Source of the DNA: Opeltia flavorubescens
Taxonomy: Eukaryota; Ascomycota; Lecanoromycetes; Teloschistales; Teloschistaceae
Direction: 5' to 3'
Assembly: GCA_000442125.1 (NCBI GenBank)
Contig: KE546971.1
Location: 250,583 to 314,582 of the forward strand
Length of the DNA stretch: 64,000 bases
The translations under genes were made by a program, and so were the position numbers. Below, piece by piece: positions 4,021 through 60,991 of this stretch. Within the stretch, counting starts at the first letter, position 1, and each line of letters begins with the position of its first letter. The notes below the pieces were generated by a model. It did no database searches. It was given only the letters and a program-made list of their open reading frames with translations, and was not told the DNA's origin.

Positions 4021-4646
4021 ATGCATCTCCTCCCCCTCATCCTCCTCCCCCTCCTTCCCCTCGCTCTCGCAGCAGAAGTCGAAACCGAATACACGCTCAC
4101 GAACGAATGCTCGCGGAAATCCGCAAGGGGAGATACGGTGCAAGTGCATTACCGAGGCACTTTGGCGGCAGATGGCTCGGAGTTTGATGCGAGTTATAAC
4201 CGTGGACAGCCGCTGGAGTTTACGGTTGGGAGGGGCATGGTTATTAAAGGGTGAGTTGGTTAGTTTGATCAGGGTGGAGCGATGATGGGTTTGGAGATGG
4301 GGAAGAGAAGGGCGGGCAGTGGAGGCAGATTGGATTACTGCGATTAGGGACAGTTTTTGGACAAGATAGGCTTTTTGGAAGGAAAGTTTTTGCTAATGTG
4401 GTTTTTGATTTTATACAGATGGGATGAAGGGCTTTTGGATATGTGCATTGGCGATAAGAGGAAGTTGACGATTCCTCCCGAGTTCGGGTATGGTCAGCGT
4501 GCGATGGGCGCAATTCCGGCGGGATCAACGCTGGGTGAGTTGATTGAGGTTCTTTGGGGTCTGGTGGGAATTGCTGCTGATGATTGATTGTAGTTTTCGA
4601 GACAGAGTTGATGGGCATTAAGGGTGTGGAAAAGGAGGAATTATGA
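4021..4646 (+). CDS. ER-resident FKBP-type peptidyl-prolyl isomerase (FKBP2 type)
   Basis: Three exons, 4021..4250, 4419..4534 and 4594..4646, 132 residues; all junctions are in phase. It catalyses cis-trans isomerisation of Xaa-Pro bonds during folding in the secretory pathway. The N-terminus is a clear signal peptide ([17 protein letters not shown]). The FKBP fold follows, with the conserved [46 protein letters not shown] and IPAGSTLVFETEL segments, which include the active-site Trp and Tyr of the family. The last four residues are KEEL, close to the HDEL/HEEL retrieval signals of fungal ER proteins, so retention in the ER lumen is expected. Length matches FKBP2/FKBP13 homologues. Intron 1 (168 bp) is unusually long for this window; intron 2 is 59 bp. 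The ATG at 4021 is the one placed directly before the signal peptide. Confidence 0.93.
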
Positions 4647-6404: not shown

Positions 6405-8877
6405 ATGGATCACGCCATCTGCGTCGTGGACGCAACCACTTTGGTGGACCATATCCAGGAGATCAAAAACCTTGTATATCAAGATAAGATCCGCCTCATC
6501 GTGCCTCAGTGCAGTAGGTGTCCCTTCGTGTGGTTGAATTAACAGCACTAATGCAAACTTCTCATAGCATCAACGCCGCTCGAGAGCAAATATGAAAAGC
6601 TCACCGAAGAAGCGAACAAAAAACCTTCAAGGCAACTAGAGCCTCAGCGGCCGAAATCAAGCGGAAGACCTGCCAAGGTCGAACCCCCGGCCGTGGATAT
6701 TAATCCCCTTGTAGCTGGTGAATTTCTAGCCAGATTTCGATCAAAGGAAGGACAAAATGTTGTGGAATTCCAGAAAGACAGCGAACAGTACTCGCCTTGG
6801 AGAATATTGGAATTGGAAGAGGAGAGTAGAGCTGCCAGCGAAAACCGACCTACATCGTTTGCTCAAGCTGTACGCAAACAGAGCATGGAGCAGTTTTCGA
6901 ACGCTGCAGGGGCTACAAACGGTGAGCGACGGCCGGTTGGGTCACACTTCGCTCAAGCTTATGATTTCAGGTCCTCAAAAGCCACGTTTGGTAGCGCGAT
7001 CCGCGGGAGCTGACGCCTCACCATGGAAGAAGAGCAACAAGGCACTATCTCTGCCAATCAGTGAAGTGCCCAAGGAGAAAAGACCAATTCTTGGCTGCCT
7101 TCTTTGGCGATTGCACGAAAAGGGTGCAACTCGCTGGGACATTGATCGCACAGTGTTGATTTGTAACGATGAGAAGACGGTTGTATTGGCCAAGAAACTG
7201 GGGATTGCTACAAAGTCTATGGCTGATCTCAAAAAATCATGCGATACCAAAGATCCTGCAGATAAGAAAAGGGAAACCTTCGGAGATCTCGAGAAAGATT
7301 TCGGTATTCCAGAGACAGTCAAAGTCTCGTCATCACATAATACTACGAAAGACTCCGTGTCGGTATCCATAGTGCCTATCGTGGATCCGCCAAATGAGAA
7401 TAAGCAGGACTCTACTTCTGCTCCCGAGGAAGCCAACAGCTCTCATTCTAGCATTTCATCCACAGAGAATCCTGCCGCTCAACATTCGGCTGACACGTCG
7501 CCTTCCGATAAAAGAGTGGTCAACGTTGAGAAGCCTGATAGTGTGGGCATTTCGAAAAGCACTCAGATCGAAAATCAGACGCAAAATCAGATCGATGGCC
7601 TTCCTCCTACCCCGTCACCCGAAAGTGATAGCGAGCCGGTGGTGGATGCAGCTCCTAATGCGCCTATCGACGCAACCGCGCAACGTAATCAAATGGCAAA
7701 CCAAGCACCACGCTCAAGCTTCAGTACACTGGCCGTTGAGAAAGAAAATTCCATTGCTGAATGGGTTAGGAGCCTCATGGATGCGACCAACAACAGCGAG
7801 ACTAGTGGACGCAATACGCCAATGTCCGGTCATTCATCCACTGTGGATCCCGTTTCAGCACAGCCAGAGCCCTTGAAAAAGTTCAAGCCTTTGAGCTATC
7901 TGCAAGCTGTTACTGGAAAAGCAGAGGAGGCAGCTAAGAAAGTAACCCCACCGCCCAAGAAACAAATCATCCCTTCACCTCGTAGTAGCCCAGTCAGAGA
8001 TCCGTTGCCAACAAAGATGGAAGATCCTATTGATAGTGACGAAGAAATCGTCGTCTTCAATCCAAAAGCGAAACGTCTTTCAGCTCAGAAAGCCCAGCAA
8101 AATCAACAGATCCAGCAAGCTCGTCAGGCCCAACAGGCTCAACAGGCTCAGCAAGTTCAGCAGGTCCAGCAGATCCAGCAAGTACAACAAGTAGTACCGC
8201 AAGTCCATCAGGTCCAACAGAATCCGCGACCACAGACCCCAAAATCTTCGCCTAGGCATACTCATGCTCGGAACGCCAGTGGTGGCCGTTCCCACACCAG
8301 AGGTGGCCATCAACGACAATCGCGACCCGGACCTCCGCCTGTTGTCATCGATCCTGATTCCTTCGGACGTGACTTAGGGACCAATCCTCAGCCAAGTGGT
8401 GTTCGCACTTTCAGTCCTTATGGTGCTCATGGTCGTATGACCAATGATCGTCGCGGTAATCATCGATCCCCCAATCCTCGTCACTCCATGCAGAATACGC
8501 TTTCAAAAGTCACCGCTCTCACGAATGGTAGTTCGGACGCAGAGATACAGCCAGCAGCTCCTGTAGTGAACGGGCACGACACTGTAGAACCTGCTTCTGC
8601 GACCCCGGCTCCATCAGTTGCCACCCCACCAGTATTATTGAAACCCAGCCCTCTAATCAACGGCCCAGTCGCCGAATCTGCGGCGCCTGGGCCTAGCCTC
8701 TCTGTCAACGGGCTTCAGAGCAGCCCAAGTATTCTGCCATCTCGCGCCGAAAGACCTCGATACTCGCCACGAGGTAGTCCTCGCCGCGCACCGGCAGAGC
8801 CTGATGTGGGGTACGTGTTGAAATCTGGGCAACCTCGCGAAGCCACCCGGGNGAGAGGCAAGTTATGGGTTCCTTAA
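6405..8877 (+). CDS. PIN-domain protein with long disordered tail
   Basis: Exons 6405..6513, 6568..6921 and 6971..8877, 789 residues, with introns of 54 and 49 bp, both in phase. The first exon (MDHAICVVDATTLVDHIQ) has the strand plus acidic residue that opens PIN ribonuclease folds, followed by the IRLIVP strand. Residues about 40-155 interrupt the fold, and its second half returns as WDIDRTVLICNDEKTVVLAKKLGI. PIN domains are metal-dependent RNA nucleases or inactive RNA-binding relatives; the substrate is unknown. Residues about 230-780 are low complexity, with a Gln-rich tract at 8090-8220 built from CAG/CAA codons, Ser/Pro runs and an RGRGKLWVP C-terminus typical of conserved tails. Base 8852 is N, making one residue unknown. 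The start at 6405 is the only in-frame ATG after a stop at 6363; an upstream coding exon is possible. Confidence 0.72.
8090..8220 (+). repeat. Imperfect CAG/CAA (glutamine) repeat within the PIN-domain gene
   Basis: Coding repeat of Q-A-Q-Q, Q-V-Q-Q and Q-I-Q-Q units, interrupted enough to be relatively stable. On the opposite strand it gives Leu-rich ORFs with no support. Confidence 0.8.
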
Positions 8878-9479: not shown

Positions 9480-11806
9480 TCATCCGAAGAATAATTTCTT
9501 CGCCCTCCCTTCAGCGCCACCACCTCCCAAACCTAAACCAAGACCATCAAGTTTCCGTTTCCCCCTCGATTTCGCTTTTCCTCGACCTATACTTCCTTCT
9601 CTCCCTCCTCCTGTTTTCCCATCCGCACCGCCACCCAAATCCCATTTACCTACCGGACCGATCGCAGATGAAAGCGAACCAGCAGATGCTGCTTCACTGG
9701 CCATACACTCCTCAGCAACCTCCCTAATAACCCCCCTCGAAAGGCAAAGATCAACATGTTCGTTGAAGGCGCGGTCGCTGGCGACTTGAGGCCGGGTGCA
9801 GATTGGGCAGTGCCATATCTGCACCCCTCCTTCCCCTTCCCTACCTCCACTCCCTCCTTCCCCCTGATTTCCTTCTCCTTTCCCTCGACCCTCGCTCCCT
9901 GCTGCGCTGTTCCGCCCACCCTGCTCACCCACCCCGCGGTATTCCTTTTTCGGGTATGCGGGAATATCTGTATTTTGTTGACGGCTACGGAGGCGGCGGT
10001 CAGCTTCCTCGCTGGCTTTCTGTTGGGAGCGGGTGGAGGATTGGTCGTTTTTTTGTAGATTGGGAGCGGTGGATTTGATTAGGGGGATTTGGTTGGAATT
10101 GGGTAGAGGGGAGGAAGTGGATTGTTGTTGTTCGTGTTCTTGGCTGAGTTGTTCGAGATGTTGGAGTTCCTGCTCACGTTCCTCGCGGGCGGCGGCTTCG
10201 AAGTCGTCTTCTGGCCAGGGGGATTGCCATTCTTCTTCGTCGTTGGCTGTGGGTGTTTGGTCATTCAGATTTGGAAGAAGAGGAGGGGAGTAGGTGGATG
10301 TGCTAAGGTGATGAGTGTGAGAGGAGAGCGGCCGCTTCAACCCGAAGAAATCTACATCTTTCTCCCTTTTTGTGCTTACGAGATGTGTGCACCTCAGACC
10401 CATAAGCCTTAGCTTCATCCCCGGGATCTCGCGCTCCAGTTTCTGGAACATGGGTAATGCGTACGTGTACAAGTCGTCAGCCGTACTTACGGCTTTTGGC
10501 GGAATAACCTGCCGGGTCAAAACTTCATAAGTGTGGAGCTTAATCTTAAGCACTAGAGTCCTCCCTTTATTACCCGTGCGAGCGAGATCTTTCTCCAATT
10601 CCTCCGCGATCCAGCGTAGTTTTGCGCGGAGTTCTTGCTTCCCGCTCATGTCTCTGAAGGTACTTTCCGTGCCTACGCTCTTTCGCTCGTACTCTTCTGC
10701 AGGGCGGACGCTCGTGTGGCCAAGGCCGAGGTGGACTTGCATGAGGAAGTGGAAGGCTTTTTCGCCGAAGAGCTTGGAGAGGAACGCTCGTTGGGCGTAG
10801 ATGTCGCCGCAGGTCTTGACGCCGATGGCGTCGAGTTCGCGCTCGAAGACTCGGCCAATGCCGTTCACTTTTCTGGTGGGGAGATCTCGCATGAAAGCCA
10901 TGATTGTGGTTCTGTCGCTTGCGACTCGGAATTGCCCATTAGGCTTGTTGCGGTTGGAGGCGATTTTTGCGATTCTCGCGTTTGCGGCCACGCCGGCTGA
11001 GACGGTGATTTTGGCCTTCTCGAAGACTTGGCTGCGGAGTTGGCTGACTGCTTCATCTGCGCTCATGTCGTGGTCGGTGCAGTATTGGGTGATATTCAAG
11101 TATGCCTCGTCCATGCTTGCACTTTGGAAACGCTCATCGTATTGAGCCAGTACTTCTCGGACCTCTTGTGCTTTCTTGGTGTATTTTTCAAAATTCAGAG
11201 GGAGGCAAATGAGCTGTGGGCATAATTTCATGGCGACGAAACCGGCCATGCCACTCCGGCAGCCGAACTTTCTGGCGTGATAGTTGCATGTGGTAAGAAC
11301 ACCTTTCCCGACGGCCATGGGAACATGTTTCAGTTCTGGCCGGTCCAGCTCTTCAACGGCGGCGTAAAAGGCATCGCAGTCGACGTGGACGACGATCTGG
11401 GAGAGATCTCTGGAGAGTTCCAATTCAGCGATACGCTCATCGGCGCGGCGCAGGTCAGCCGTAAGGTCGATAAGCTCGAGCTGTCGTTTACGAGCGAGTA
11501 TCTTTCCGATCTTCTGGGTAAGATTCTTGTCCTTTGATTCTTCGTTGTTGAAGAATTTAGATCCTTTGGAGGCGTTGTAGATAATCTCTGAGACCTATGG
11601 ATATCGTTAGCAGTAGCAGAGGTTTAGTGATAGACTAGACATACCTTCTGCTGATCCACAGCATCTTGACCTGCCTTGGTCAAGGAGGGTCCCAGAAGGT
11701 GATATTTGAGCGTGTCATGCTCTGCAACGGCGACTTCTGCTTTCGCGACTGGGGGCTTCGCATGCTCATCTTCAACGGTAGATCTAGTCGCACCGCTTGC
11801 GATCAT
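9480..11806 (-). CDS. DNA polymerase kappa (DinB-type Y-family translesion polymerase)
   Basis: Two exons, complement of 11645..11806 and 9480..11594, 758 residues, with a 50-bp intron in phase. It extends primers past bulky minor-groove lesions. The N-terminal block LKYHLLGPSLTKAGQD and the QKVSEIIYNASKGSKFF helix are characteristic of kappa. Catalytic motifs are present: HVDCDAFYAAVEELDRPEL, the CNYHARKFGCRSGM finger region, SMDEAYLNI with the metal-binding Asp-Glu pair, and GVAANARIAKIASNRNKPNGQ. Helix-hairpin-helix and little-finger regions follow (RKVNGIGRVFERELDAIG). The C-terminus has one UBZ-type zinc finger (CPICTRP...FNEHVDLCL) for ubiquitinated PCNA. Between them lies a Gln/Ser-rich linker. 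The start is the first in-frame ATG (11806), about 30 residues before the conserved block, as in homologues; the frame is open further upstream without an ATG. Confidence 0.93.
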
Positions 11807-57942: not shown

Positions 57943-60490
57943 ATGTCAATAACAATTCGCTTTCCTTTGGATGTAGTCCTCCTTCCGAGAAGGCTGGTCC
58001 TCTTATCGTACCATGTGATCATCGCTACTAGCTTTACTGTATCTGGTCAGACTTTTTATAGTATTTGAAGTTACAAATGCTGATCTTTTCTTGGCCTCTA
58101 GAAATATGGGCAAACTCTTCTGCTTCACCACCAGCAGCGATATCGAGCACGAACGCTTCATGTTCCTACGACTGCACAATCTCTGGCCTTAATCTTAATA
58201 TAAATTGGTATCGAGCTGCTGTCACGAAGGTTGTCGCCGAAGAGACAGCTACAATCAATTCTTCCATTGGGCAGTCGGCCAGCAACGCTTCCTTGTCTCT
58301 TGTCAACCTTACCCAATGGATTGTAGCCCCTAAGCCGGCAGCAGGTCACGCAAATGATGATCAATCTCTCATTACTCACAGTGACACATTCTATGAGGCT
58401 TTCCTGTCTACAACTATGTCAGTCATATACCCTTCTTCAGATTGGTACTCCAGTGACTGATGTTTATCAGCACATCGCCAACCGTAGTAAATATCATCTC
58501 TATCGCTTCCATTGATGAGACAGTTTCTACAATTGTCAATGGCAAGCCCACTTGCGAGAGAGTCGAATACGATACTGCTAGCTTAGGTATCTTCGTTGTA
58601 AATCCGGAAGGAGGCAATCAAATTACAATGCCTCCCTCCTACTTATCGAATTTGGGTGTAATGTCCCCATCAGAGTGCGTACATTCCGAAAGTATTGTTA
58701 CAGCGAATGTCCCCGTATCATCACTACTTACAGCTACCGTGGCATACACATTGGCATTTGTGCCGAACACATCGCCTGCCCTACCGTCTATTACAGCCAC
58801 CGAATCAACCCAATCGCCCTCTACTATAATTATACCTCCCTCAGTCCCAGGCATTCAACCCAGTCCAAAGACTCCAGTCACCATAGGGTTGTCACCTTTG
58901 GGACTCCCTGATTGGCATGATTCATCTCTAGCGAGTGAACCCTCACACGAAATGAGTATCACAAAGACCTGGCTCGAAGTACCACCAGCTGAATCACATA
59001 AGTCTCCGATGGTAGACCCACAAATTTTGGAAGTACCCAGTGGTTGGCAAAGTGGTGGTGAACCTCCCTGGCCTCATATTATTGTAATCTTCAGTGGTAA
59101 CGCTGTCACTTTACTCTCTTCGGTGCGCCCAACTGGAGCCGAAACTAAGCGGTAAGGATCCAGTCAACGACAGGAGAGTCTACCTGCAGTCGAACAGTCA
59201 ATAACACTTGATTTCAGACCACAGCACGCTATGGAACAGGGGATATCATCAAATCCCGTCATGTTAACTCCAGGTGCCAATGATCCTGCCAACGCAAGGG
59301 TAACCGACACAGCGATACCTCGTACAAAGTCTACTGCAGTCCTTCAGTCGATCAATATTGCAGGTATTGAAGCCATAAGAAACTCGAACTCGCAGTATAT
59401 CGTTGGTTCGCAGACGCTGACACCGGGAGCGGCTGCTATCACCATCGATGGAACACCCGTTTCTCTTGACCCTTCAGCAACAGCTTTAGTCATAGGTTCA
59501 TCTACCCAGCCTCTTATTATGTCCTCGAAACAGAGCGCATTCACGGCTGATGGCTTCAAATTCACTTCTGGGTCCAATTCAGCTCTCATCATTGGTACGA
59601 AAACAGTTACGCCCGGTGCAGCTGCAGTCACAATCTCCGGAATGCCGGTCTCGCTGGCTATCGATGGAAAAGCGTTAATGATTGGTGGGTCAACAATCCC
59701 GGTGCTCAATCGATCCGTCATCAGTGCGACGATGACACCACCAGCCGTCATACAAGTCAATGGCCGATCCTTCACAGCGGTTTCCGGATCCATCTTCATC
59801 CTGGGTCCACAGACGCTGATACCAGGAGGCTCGGCAATCACATTCGGTGGTACACGAGTCTCATTGGCTCCCGACGGAACAGCCATCGTTATTGGAGAAT
59901 CAGCAATACCATTACCAGACCGAACCACAACGCCAACGGTACTACAATTCAACGGCCAATCATTCACAGCAATCTCTGGATCGGAACTCCTGATCGGCTC
60001 TCAAACACTTATACCAGGGGCATCTGCAATCACTGTCGACGGTACACGAATCTCCCTAGCCCCAGACGGAACAGCCATCGTTATCGGTGGATCCACTGTC
60101 CCAATCCCGCTTCCAACGACCACACCAGTAGCCGTGCTCGAGCTAGGAGGAAAATCCTACACAGAGATCTCTGGATCCGAATTCATCATCGGCTCGCAAA
60201 CGCTTGTAGCAGGAGGATCCGCAATTACAGTCAACGGCACACTAGTCTCGCTTGGTGTTGCGGCGACGAATCTGGTTGTTGGGACAAAGACGGCGGCTTT
60301 GACGACGTCAGGGGGCTTGGGCGAGATAATCATGGGCGGGTTCTCGGGTGGAGATCCTGGGGCGCCGAGGGCGACGAATACGAGTGATCCAGCGATCTTC
60401 AGGGGAGGGGCGAACCGGGTCGTTGAGCAGCGGAGCGGATGGTTGTTGCTAGGGATGGTTTTTTCTGGCATCGTAGCTGAGCTTATCTGA
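57943..60490 (+). CDS. Repeat-bearing GPI-anchored cell-wall protein
   Basis: Exons 57943..58045, 58102..58417, 58471..59151 and 59218..60490, 790 residues; introns of 56, 53 and 66 bp are all in phase. The ATG at 57943 puts a signal peptide in exon 1 (LVLLSYHVIIATSFTVS). Residues about 35-420 are Ser/Thr/Pro/Asn-rich with many glycosylation sites. Residues about 421-724 hold five tandem repeats of ~50-60 residues built on IIGSQTLxPGxSAITVDGT, then (V/I)SLxPDGTAIVIG. The C-terminus ends in a hydrophobic stretch (GWLLLGMVFSGIVAELI) that fits a GPI-attachment signal. A structural or adhesive wall role is inferred from this architecture, which is common in Pezizomycotina. Repeats 3 and 4 are nearly identical, suggesting recent expansion. 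The gene is head to head with the aspartyl-protease-like gene. Confidence 0.88.
59385..60300 (+). repeat. Five tandem ~170-180-bp coding repeats
   Basis: Units begin near 59391, 59570, 59760, 59945 and 60135, each carrying G-S-Q-T-L-x-P-G, the A-I-T-x-x-G-T-x-(V/I)-S-L core and an I-x-I-G end. Divergence is greatest for unit 2; units 3 and 4 are the most alike. Repeat number may vary between strains. Confidence 0.85.
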
Positions 60491-60849
60491 TCCGCCAATG
60501 AGCAAATCTGGTTTCTGAAAGGCTGGTCAAGATAAAGGGCGATGTTATCATGACTAAATAACTGTACTTCTATACTTTGTAACATCGTATGGGGCTATTT
60601 CAACCACCCAAGACAAGAACCTTGCCCCAAGAAAAGAAACATGCTTAGAAATATCTTGATTTTCCAGATTGTGGCTTGGTTCTTTCAAGAGGAAGCAATG
60701 ATGAGGGAAGTACGTGTGATCGAATTTGACTAATTGTGCAATCACCGAGACATGATTTCATCTCCTTTCTGGGATGATACGGCATTTTTCAGAGTTAGGG
60801 AAGAGAAAAAGTATAATATTTACAGCTTTAAGGGGACCTTCTGAAAAAT
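60491..60849. other. Intergenic, 3' UTR and tRNA 5' flank
   Basis: No coding signal. A minus-strand ORF overlapping the tRNA is treated as spurious. Confidence 0.45.
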
Positions 60850-60980
60850 GCTCCAATGGCGCAATGGTGAGAGATACATCTGCTCTGTCACATTTCGCGC
60901 AATCTAACAGCATCTTCAGGTAGCGCGCCAGACTTCTATCAGGCATCTGGAGGCTCTGGGTTCGAGTCCCAGTTGGAGTG
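60850..60980 (+). tRNA. tRNA-Arg (anticodon TCT), interrupted in the D-loop and at 37/38
   Basis: Acceptor 5' GCTCCAA (60850-60856) pairs with 3' TTGGAGT (60973-60979; one G-T), discriminator G at 60980. The D-stem is GCGC (60859-60862 region) with GCGC (60923-60926 region). The anticodon stem CCAGA pairs with TCTGG, and the loop reads CTTCTA then A after removal of six bases (TCAGGC, 60939-60944), the standard tRNA-intron site. T-arm: CTGGG TTCGAGT CCCAG. Box A (TGGCGCAATGG, 60857-60867) and box B (GGTTCGAGTCC, 60959-60969) are intact. Between the two halves of the D-loop lies a 53-bp insert. After removal of both inserts the cloverleaf is complete, with a 7-nt D-loop (AATGGTA). Whether this copy makes a working tRNA depends on removal of the D-loop insert. 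Confidence 0.85.
60867..60919 (+). other. 53-bp spliceosomal-intron-like insertion in the tRNA D-loop
   Basis: Starts GTGAGA, has TCTAAC (branch-like A at 60907) twelve bases before the end, and ends TTCAG. Length and signals match the protein-gene introns of this window (45-78 bp for most). A GGT is repeated on each side, so the exact edges can slide by two bases. It is not at the tRNA endonuclease site and would not be recognised by it. Confidence 0.75.
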
Positions 60981-60986
60981 TCTTTC

Positions 60987-60991
60987 TTTTT
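60987..60991 (+). terminator. RNA polymerase III T-run after the tRNA
   Basis: TTTTT six bases after the discriminator, preceded by a broken T-tract (TCTTTC), the usual Pol III termination signal. Confidence 0.8.

Follow-up and report, generated by a model that had tools for sequence, protein, structure and literature searches.

Results

The window, by which we mean the whole 64-kb stretch of DNA analysed, holds on its plus strand at 60850-60980 a tRNA-Arg(TCT) gene that extends from its 5' end to the discriminator G73 and is interrupted twice, as delineated by ARAGORN in the form without 60867-60919 and by the stem pairs. Read directly on this strand, the locus consists of GCTCCAATGGCGCAATG, a 53-base insert, GTAGCGCGCCAGACTTCTA, the hexamer TCAGGC and ATCTGGAGGCTCTGGGTTCGAGTCCCAGTTGGAGTG. 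In tRNA numbering, the first exon (60850-60866) comprises positions 1-18 without position 17, the second exon (60920-60938) positions 19-37 with the anticodon TCT at 60935-60937, and the third exon (60945-60980) positions 38-73. Between G18 and G19 of the D-loop lies the 53-nt insert (60867-60919; GTGAGA...TCTAAC...TTCAG), which we read as a spliceosomal intron on the basis of its sequence, of signal scoring and of a deletion scan, while the second interruption, TCAGGC at 60939-60944, is a tRNA intron of the ordinary type at 37/38.

ARAGORN does not call tRNA-Arg with the insert in place. With 60867-60919 removed and introns allowed, it reports a tRNA-Arg(tct) whose 6-nt intron, TCAGGC, lies at 37/38; the same insert-free stretch is misread as Asp(atc) without introns allowed, and the sole call on the intact stretch with introns allowed is Asp(gtc) with a 35-nt intron. 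On the intact 64-kb window, ARAGORN without introns allowed found no gene and a scan with Rfam gave no match at the gathering score. A Rfam search restricted to 441 bases did give a tRNA match at 60901-60980 with 29.6 bits (gathering 29), the 5' half of which is located within the insert. All 21 of the 21 stem pairs, one of them G1.U72, form as standard or G-U pairs in the insert-free tRNA, and the expected base is present at 17 of the 17 inspected positions which are generally known to be invariant or semi-invariant in tRNAs, such that a cloverleaf with the anticodon TCT and the invariant bases is seen once the introns are removed. What a sequence-only reading of the locus had claimed, a tRNA complete in every stem and a second intron of 6 nt at 37/38, is thus borne out by the ARAGORN calls and the paired stems. 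The locus is a tRNA-Arg(UCU) gene, and its structure leads us to propose a working product.

The hexamer begins one base 3' of the anticodon, and C32 can pair with its third-last base G, as tRNA introns at 37/38 follow a pairing rule between nucleotide 32 and intron position -3. This pairing fits a fungal 37/38 intron better than a bulge-helix-bulge. With 6 nt, TCAGGC is at the short end of the range of 6-133 nt given for eukaryotic tRNA introns in the part of the source at hand (PMC4090602).

Signals for transcription by Pol III surround and pervade the gene on the plus strand. Box A is matched by TGGCGCAATGG at 60857-60867, the last base of which already opens the insert, and box B by GGTTCGAGTCC at 60959-60969, 102 bases from the start of box A, or 43 bases minus both introns; both assignments are based on what we take to be the consensus of these elements. 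A run of five T (60987-60991) is the likely Pol III terminator, no TTTT occurs inside the tRNA gene, and TATAATAT at 60812-60819, 38-31 bases upstream of the tRNA, might be an upstream Pol III TATA element. The statement of the sequence-only reading that box A, box B and terminator are intact therefore holds for each of them. A same-strand open frame upstream (59156-60490) encodes 444 aa in which a motif of approximately 60 residues (TLxPGxxAITxxGTxVSLAPDGTAIVIG-like) is repeated; neither a Pfam match of this frame nor a tandem array in its DNA was found, and the hydrophobic C-terminus, as judged by eye, suggests a GPI-anchored wall protein as the product.

How far the boundaries of the insert are determined by the tRNA was addressed by a scan of 2067 deletions of 40-65 nt, each run through ARAGORN. 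Any tRNA was called upon 909 of these deletions and tRNA-Arg(tct) with the 6-nt intron upon 134, among which 40 share the top score, 115.0; as D-loops vary in length, the position of the insert ends does not follow from tRNA structure alone. Exactly one of the 134 restoring deletions, 60867-60919, has GT...AG ends, which places the ends characteristic of a U2-type intron at positions that restore the tRNA, and the same stretch additionally carries GTRNG, YAG (CAG) and, 8-25 bases before its end, a CTRAY branch site. The branch-site match is TCTAAC at 60903-60908 on the plus strand, the A at 60907, 12 nt from the 3' terminus of the insert, being the likely branch point. Direct reading and deletion scan together confirm the previously noted D-loop insert of 53 nt with the spliceosomal signals GTGAGA, CTAAC and CAG.

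To estimate chance occurrence, the same deletion offsets were applied to all 127,640 anchors on both strands of the window. The top set meets such signals at 53 anchors and the full set at 154, or at 36 and 104, respectively, once the insert itself and nine introns inferred in the window are excluded, which gives a chance of comparable signals of approximately 3e-4 to 1.2e-3 (0.03-0.12% of the window anchors). A lower figure, 12/127,894 (9e-5), presumed that the ends of the insert are limited to four registers and was discarded; the higher figures are preferred because the deletion scan showed more boundary freedom than that.

As a reference from the same genome, a frame-joining scan of the window delivered 16 intron candidates, eight of which were kept by eye, while the other eight (starts 11588, 30809, 46094, 46133, 46142, 48532, 48535 and 63038) were, likewise by eye, dismissed as overlapping alternatives or doubtful. 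The comparison set of nine introns consists of the eight signal-selected ones and an intron at 4251-4418 (GTGAGT, GCTAAT, ACAG) of an FKBP-type gene, identified independently via the protein family, as exon 1 matches FKBP_C and the match of the joined product spans the junction (59 residues, E 4e-20). In the same window, a DNA polymerase kappa-like gene (9480-11644; PDB matches up to E 2.5e-107) carries an intron of 50 nt close to its 5' end, and single N bases at 8852 and 33327 indicate an assembly that is not resolved throughout. Judged by the intron signals, the polymerase kappa-like gene and the FKBP gene, the host is probably a filamentous ascomycete.

In splice-signal scoring the insert reaches 14.9, compared with 13.1-21.1 for the nine introns upon leave-one-out scoring, and is the second lowest of ten; 11 of 127,894 53-mers, the insert counted in, score at least as high. 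Its length of 53 is inside the range of 50-168 of the comparison introns. In the branch site, a T occupies a position at which the nine window introns show A, G or C, and the base at +6 is A. The insert resembles introns of the same genome at splice sites and branch site, a likeness which is partly built in because eight of the nine comparators were required to carry these signals. Of the earlier assertion that the insert equals the introns of neighbouring protein genes in signals and length, the fit itself stands, while as an independent comparison it is reduced to the FKBP intron.

A second copy of the insert is not present in the 64-kb window, where only chance-level matches of 11-19 bases were retrieved; an origin by tandem duplication was rejected on the same grounds, and the absence of a copy within 64 kb says little about a genome-wide introner. 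Pattern scans of viral_contigs for relatives returned 0, 0, 32 and 0 stretches, the last 0 being the outcome for a 23-base stretch, by which no further copy was retrieved there either. One of the 32 (L009) has a box-B-like motif after the match according to a script check, and was dropped as by eye no tRNA follows. The one match in genome_contigs (L001) is considered a chance match, since it is without Rfam match and translates as an open coding stretch.

Folding was inspected with respect to the bulge-helix-bulge, the motif addressed by the tRNA endonuclease, in four registers with 36 geometries each and with the 6-nt intron as control. The GT-AG register forms no more than 2 of the 4 central pairs across its 36 geometries, in a test which is weak because the accepted 6-nt intron itself does not exceed 3 of 4 and, in the standard geometry, has 2 of 4; by the same weak test, one other register reaches 3 of 4 central pairs with uneven bulges. 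The energy-minimum fold has no bulge-helix-bulge at the two insert junctions. Within 60859-60900, pairing of the insert's initial 34 bases among themselves and with the 5' D-strand is possible and would cover the 5' splice site; in the unspliced RNA this hairpin has -14.2 kcal/mol, and 35 of 1000 shuffles are as good. Such a predicted hairpin could hinder U1, or be meaningless. The 7-base sequence GCGCAAT of the D-arm recurs within the insert.

Discussion

The insert is probably a spliceosomal (GT-AG, U2-type) intron in a working nuclear Pol III tRNA-Arg(UCU) gene. The sequence-only reading had placed side by side a spliceosome acting on a Pol III transcript, a mobile intron that silences the gene and a Pol II transcript that covers it; we lean towards the first. 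For a gene of this anatomy we infer that Pol III would transcribe it from box A and box B, that the spliceosome would cut out the 53-nt intron in the nucleus, whereby the D-arm would be rebuilt (AAUG|GUA), and that the tRNA endonuclease, the Sen54 subunit of which touches the D-arm, would afterwards remove the 6-nt intron at 37/38. That two splicing machines operate in series, with the spliceosome having to act on the D-loop before the endonuclease acts at 37/38, is on this sequence-based argument an evenly balanced proposition; as the D-loop intron would have to leave first, the supply of the AGA-decoding tRNA would be tied to the activity of the spliceosome.

Several features count against this interpretation. 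Leader and first exon together would offer the spliceosome a very short upstream exon, the signal score is the second lowest with the deviating T in the branch site and A at +6, and a single gene only is concerned. The main rival to a spliceosomal intron is a freshly dead gene copy, in which a 53-bp insertion, be it an introner, a reverse-spliced intron or random filler, entered the D-loop, the RNA is not productively spliced and other tRNA-Arg(TCT) copies serve the cell. Accidental signals are rare yet possible, as 36 to 154 of the 127,640 anchors demonstrate, and the GGT at both ends of the insert is like a short target-site duplication. Yet the rest of the tRNA is undecayed in its 21 of 21 pairs, its invariant bases, box B and terminator, so that such a copy would have to be very young, and we regard this alternative as unlikely.

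The same-strand open frame that ends at 60490, 360 bases upstream of the tRNA, leaves room for Pol II read-through, and a read-through transcript from this gene or a lncRNA might carry the intron with the tRNA as a by-product or passenger, in line with the low-efficiency protointrons that are known from yeast noncoding RNAs according to the available text (PMC6726248). The promoter boxes and the terminator of the tRNA itself are intact, though, and a passenger intron is not expected to restore a canonical D-loop, which makes this origin improbable. Even less credit is given to an ectopic D-loop intron cut by the tRNA endonuclease at a bulge-helix-bulge, with accidental GT-AG ends: removed introns in the D- and T-arms of eukaryotic tRNAs are known from nucleomorphs and Cyanidioschyzon merolae, as stated in the part of the source at hand (PMC4090602), and the weakness of a test in which the control intron reaches 3 of 4 pairs at best speaks for leniency, but a 4-bp central helix is formed in none of the four registers, the energy-minimum fold is without the motif at either junction, and GT-AG, branch site and CAG would be left unexplained.

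If the insert, as favoured here, is spliced as a spliceosomal intron, it would break the rule that introns of eukaryotic nuclear tRNAs belong to the tRNA endonuclease alone. The non-messenger RNAs that host spliceosomal introns, U6, U3 and rRNA, would then be joined by a tRNA, and the spliceosome would be able to handle a Pol III transcript that is uncapped and very short, its first exon amounting to approximately 17 bases plus leader. The locus would also be a clean case of intron gain, by reverse splicing or as an introner, with GGT on both sides. Beyond this gene, tRNA finders can overlook genes of such a structure, as ARAGORN and the whole-window Rfam scan both missed tRNA-Arg(TCT); the tRNAscan-SE 2.0 paper states that a eukaryotic tRNA gene has at most one intron (PMC8450103). 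Searches of a collection of open-licence papers brought up no recognisable report of a spliceosomal intron in a tRNA.

Introns in the D-arm of eukaryotic tRNA genes do occur in nucleomorphs and in C. merolae (PMC4090602). They are, in contrast to what is proposed for the present insert, cut by the tRNA endonuclease, with lengths of 3-24 nt in Guillardia theta, and GT-AG, branch site and CAG are not described for them in the part of the source at hand (PMC4090602). Fungal introner-like elements, which are presented as short elements behaving as new spliceosomal introns (PMC8476143), come close in this respect to what is proposed here, but they are defined by many near-identical copies, whereas the insert is single within the 64-kb window. 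Most fungal U3 genes are transcribed by Pol II. The U3 snoRNA of fungi is a small structured RNA with GT-AG introns that carry RCTRAC and YAG at branch distances of 6-36 nt, and according to the section available frequent interruption is known, among small structured RNAs, for U3 and U6 only (PMC5832005); U3 belongs, however, to another class of RNA than a tRNA.

In the rDNA of lichens and other ascomycetes, spliceosomal introns, in one instance of 57 bp, reside in a gene that is not transcribed by Pol II and, for the lichen rDNA, all are removed in vivo, as far as described in the accessible text (PMC8527467), the difference being Pol I and rRNA there and a tRNA here. Closest in polymerase is U6 of fission yeast, a small structured RNA produced by Pol III, whose mRNA-type intron is spliced and is thought to stem from reverse splicing (PMC10484740). 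U6 is a likely target of reverse splicing because it is itself part of the spliceosome, whereas the insert described here resides in a tRNA, which has a splicing pathway of its own and a promoter of box A and box B.
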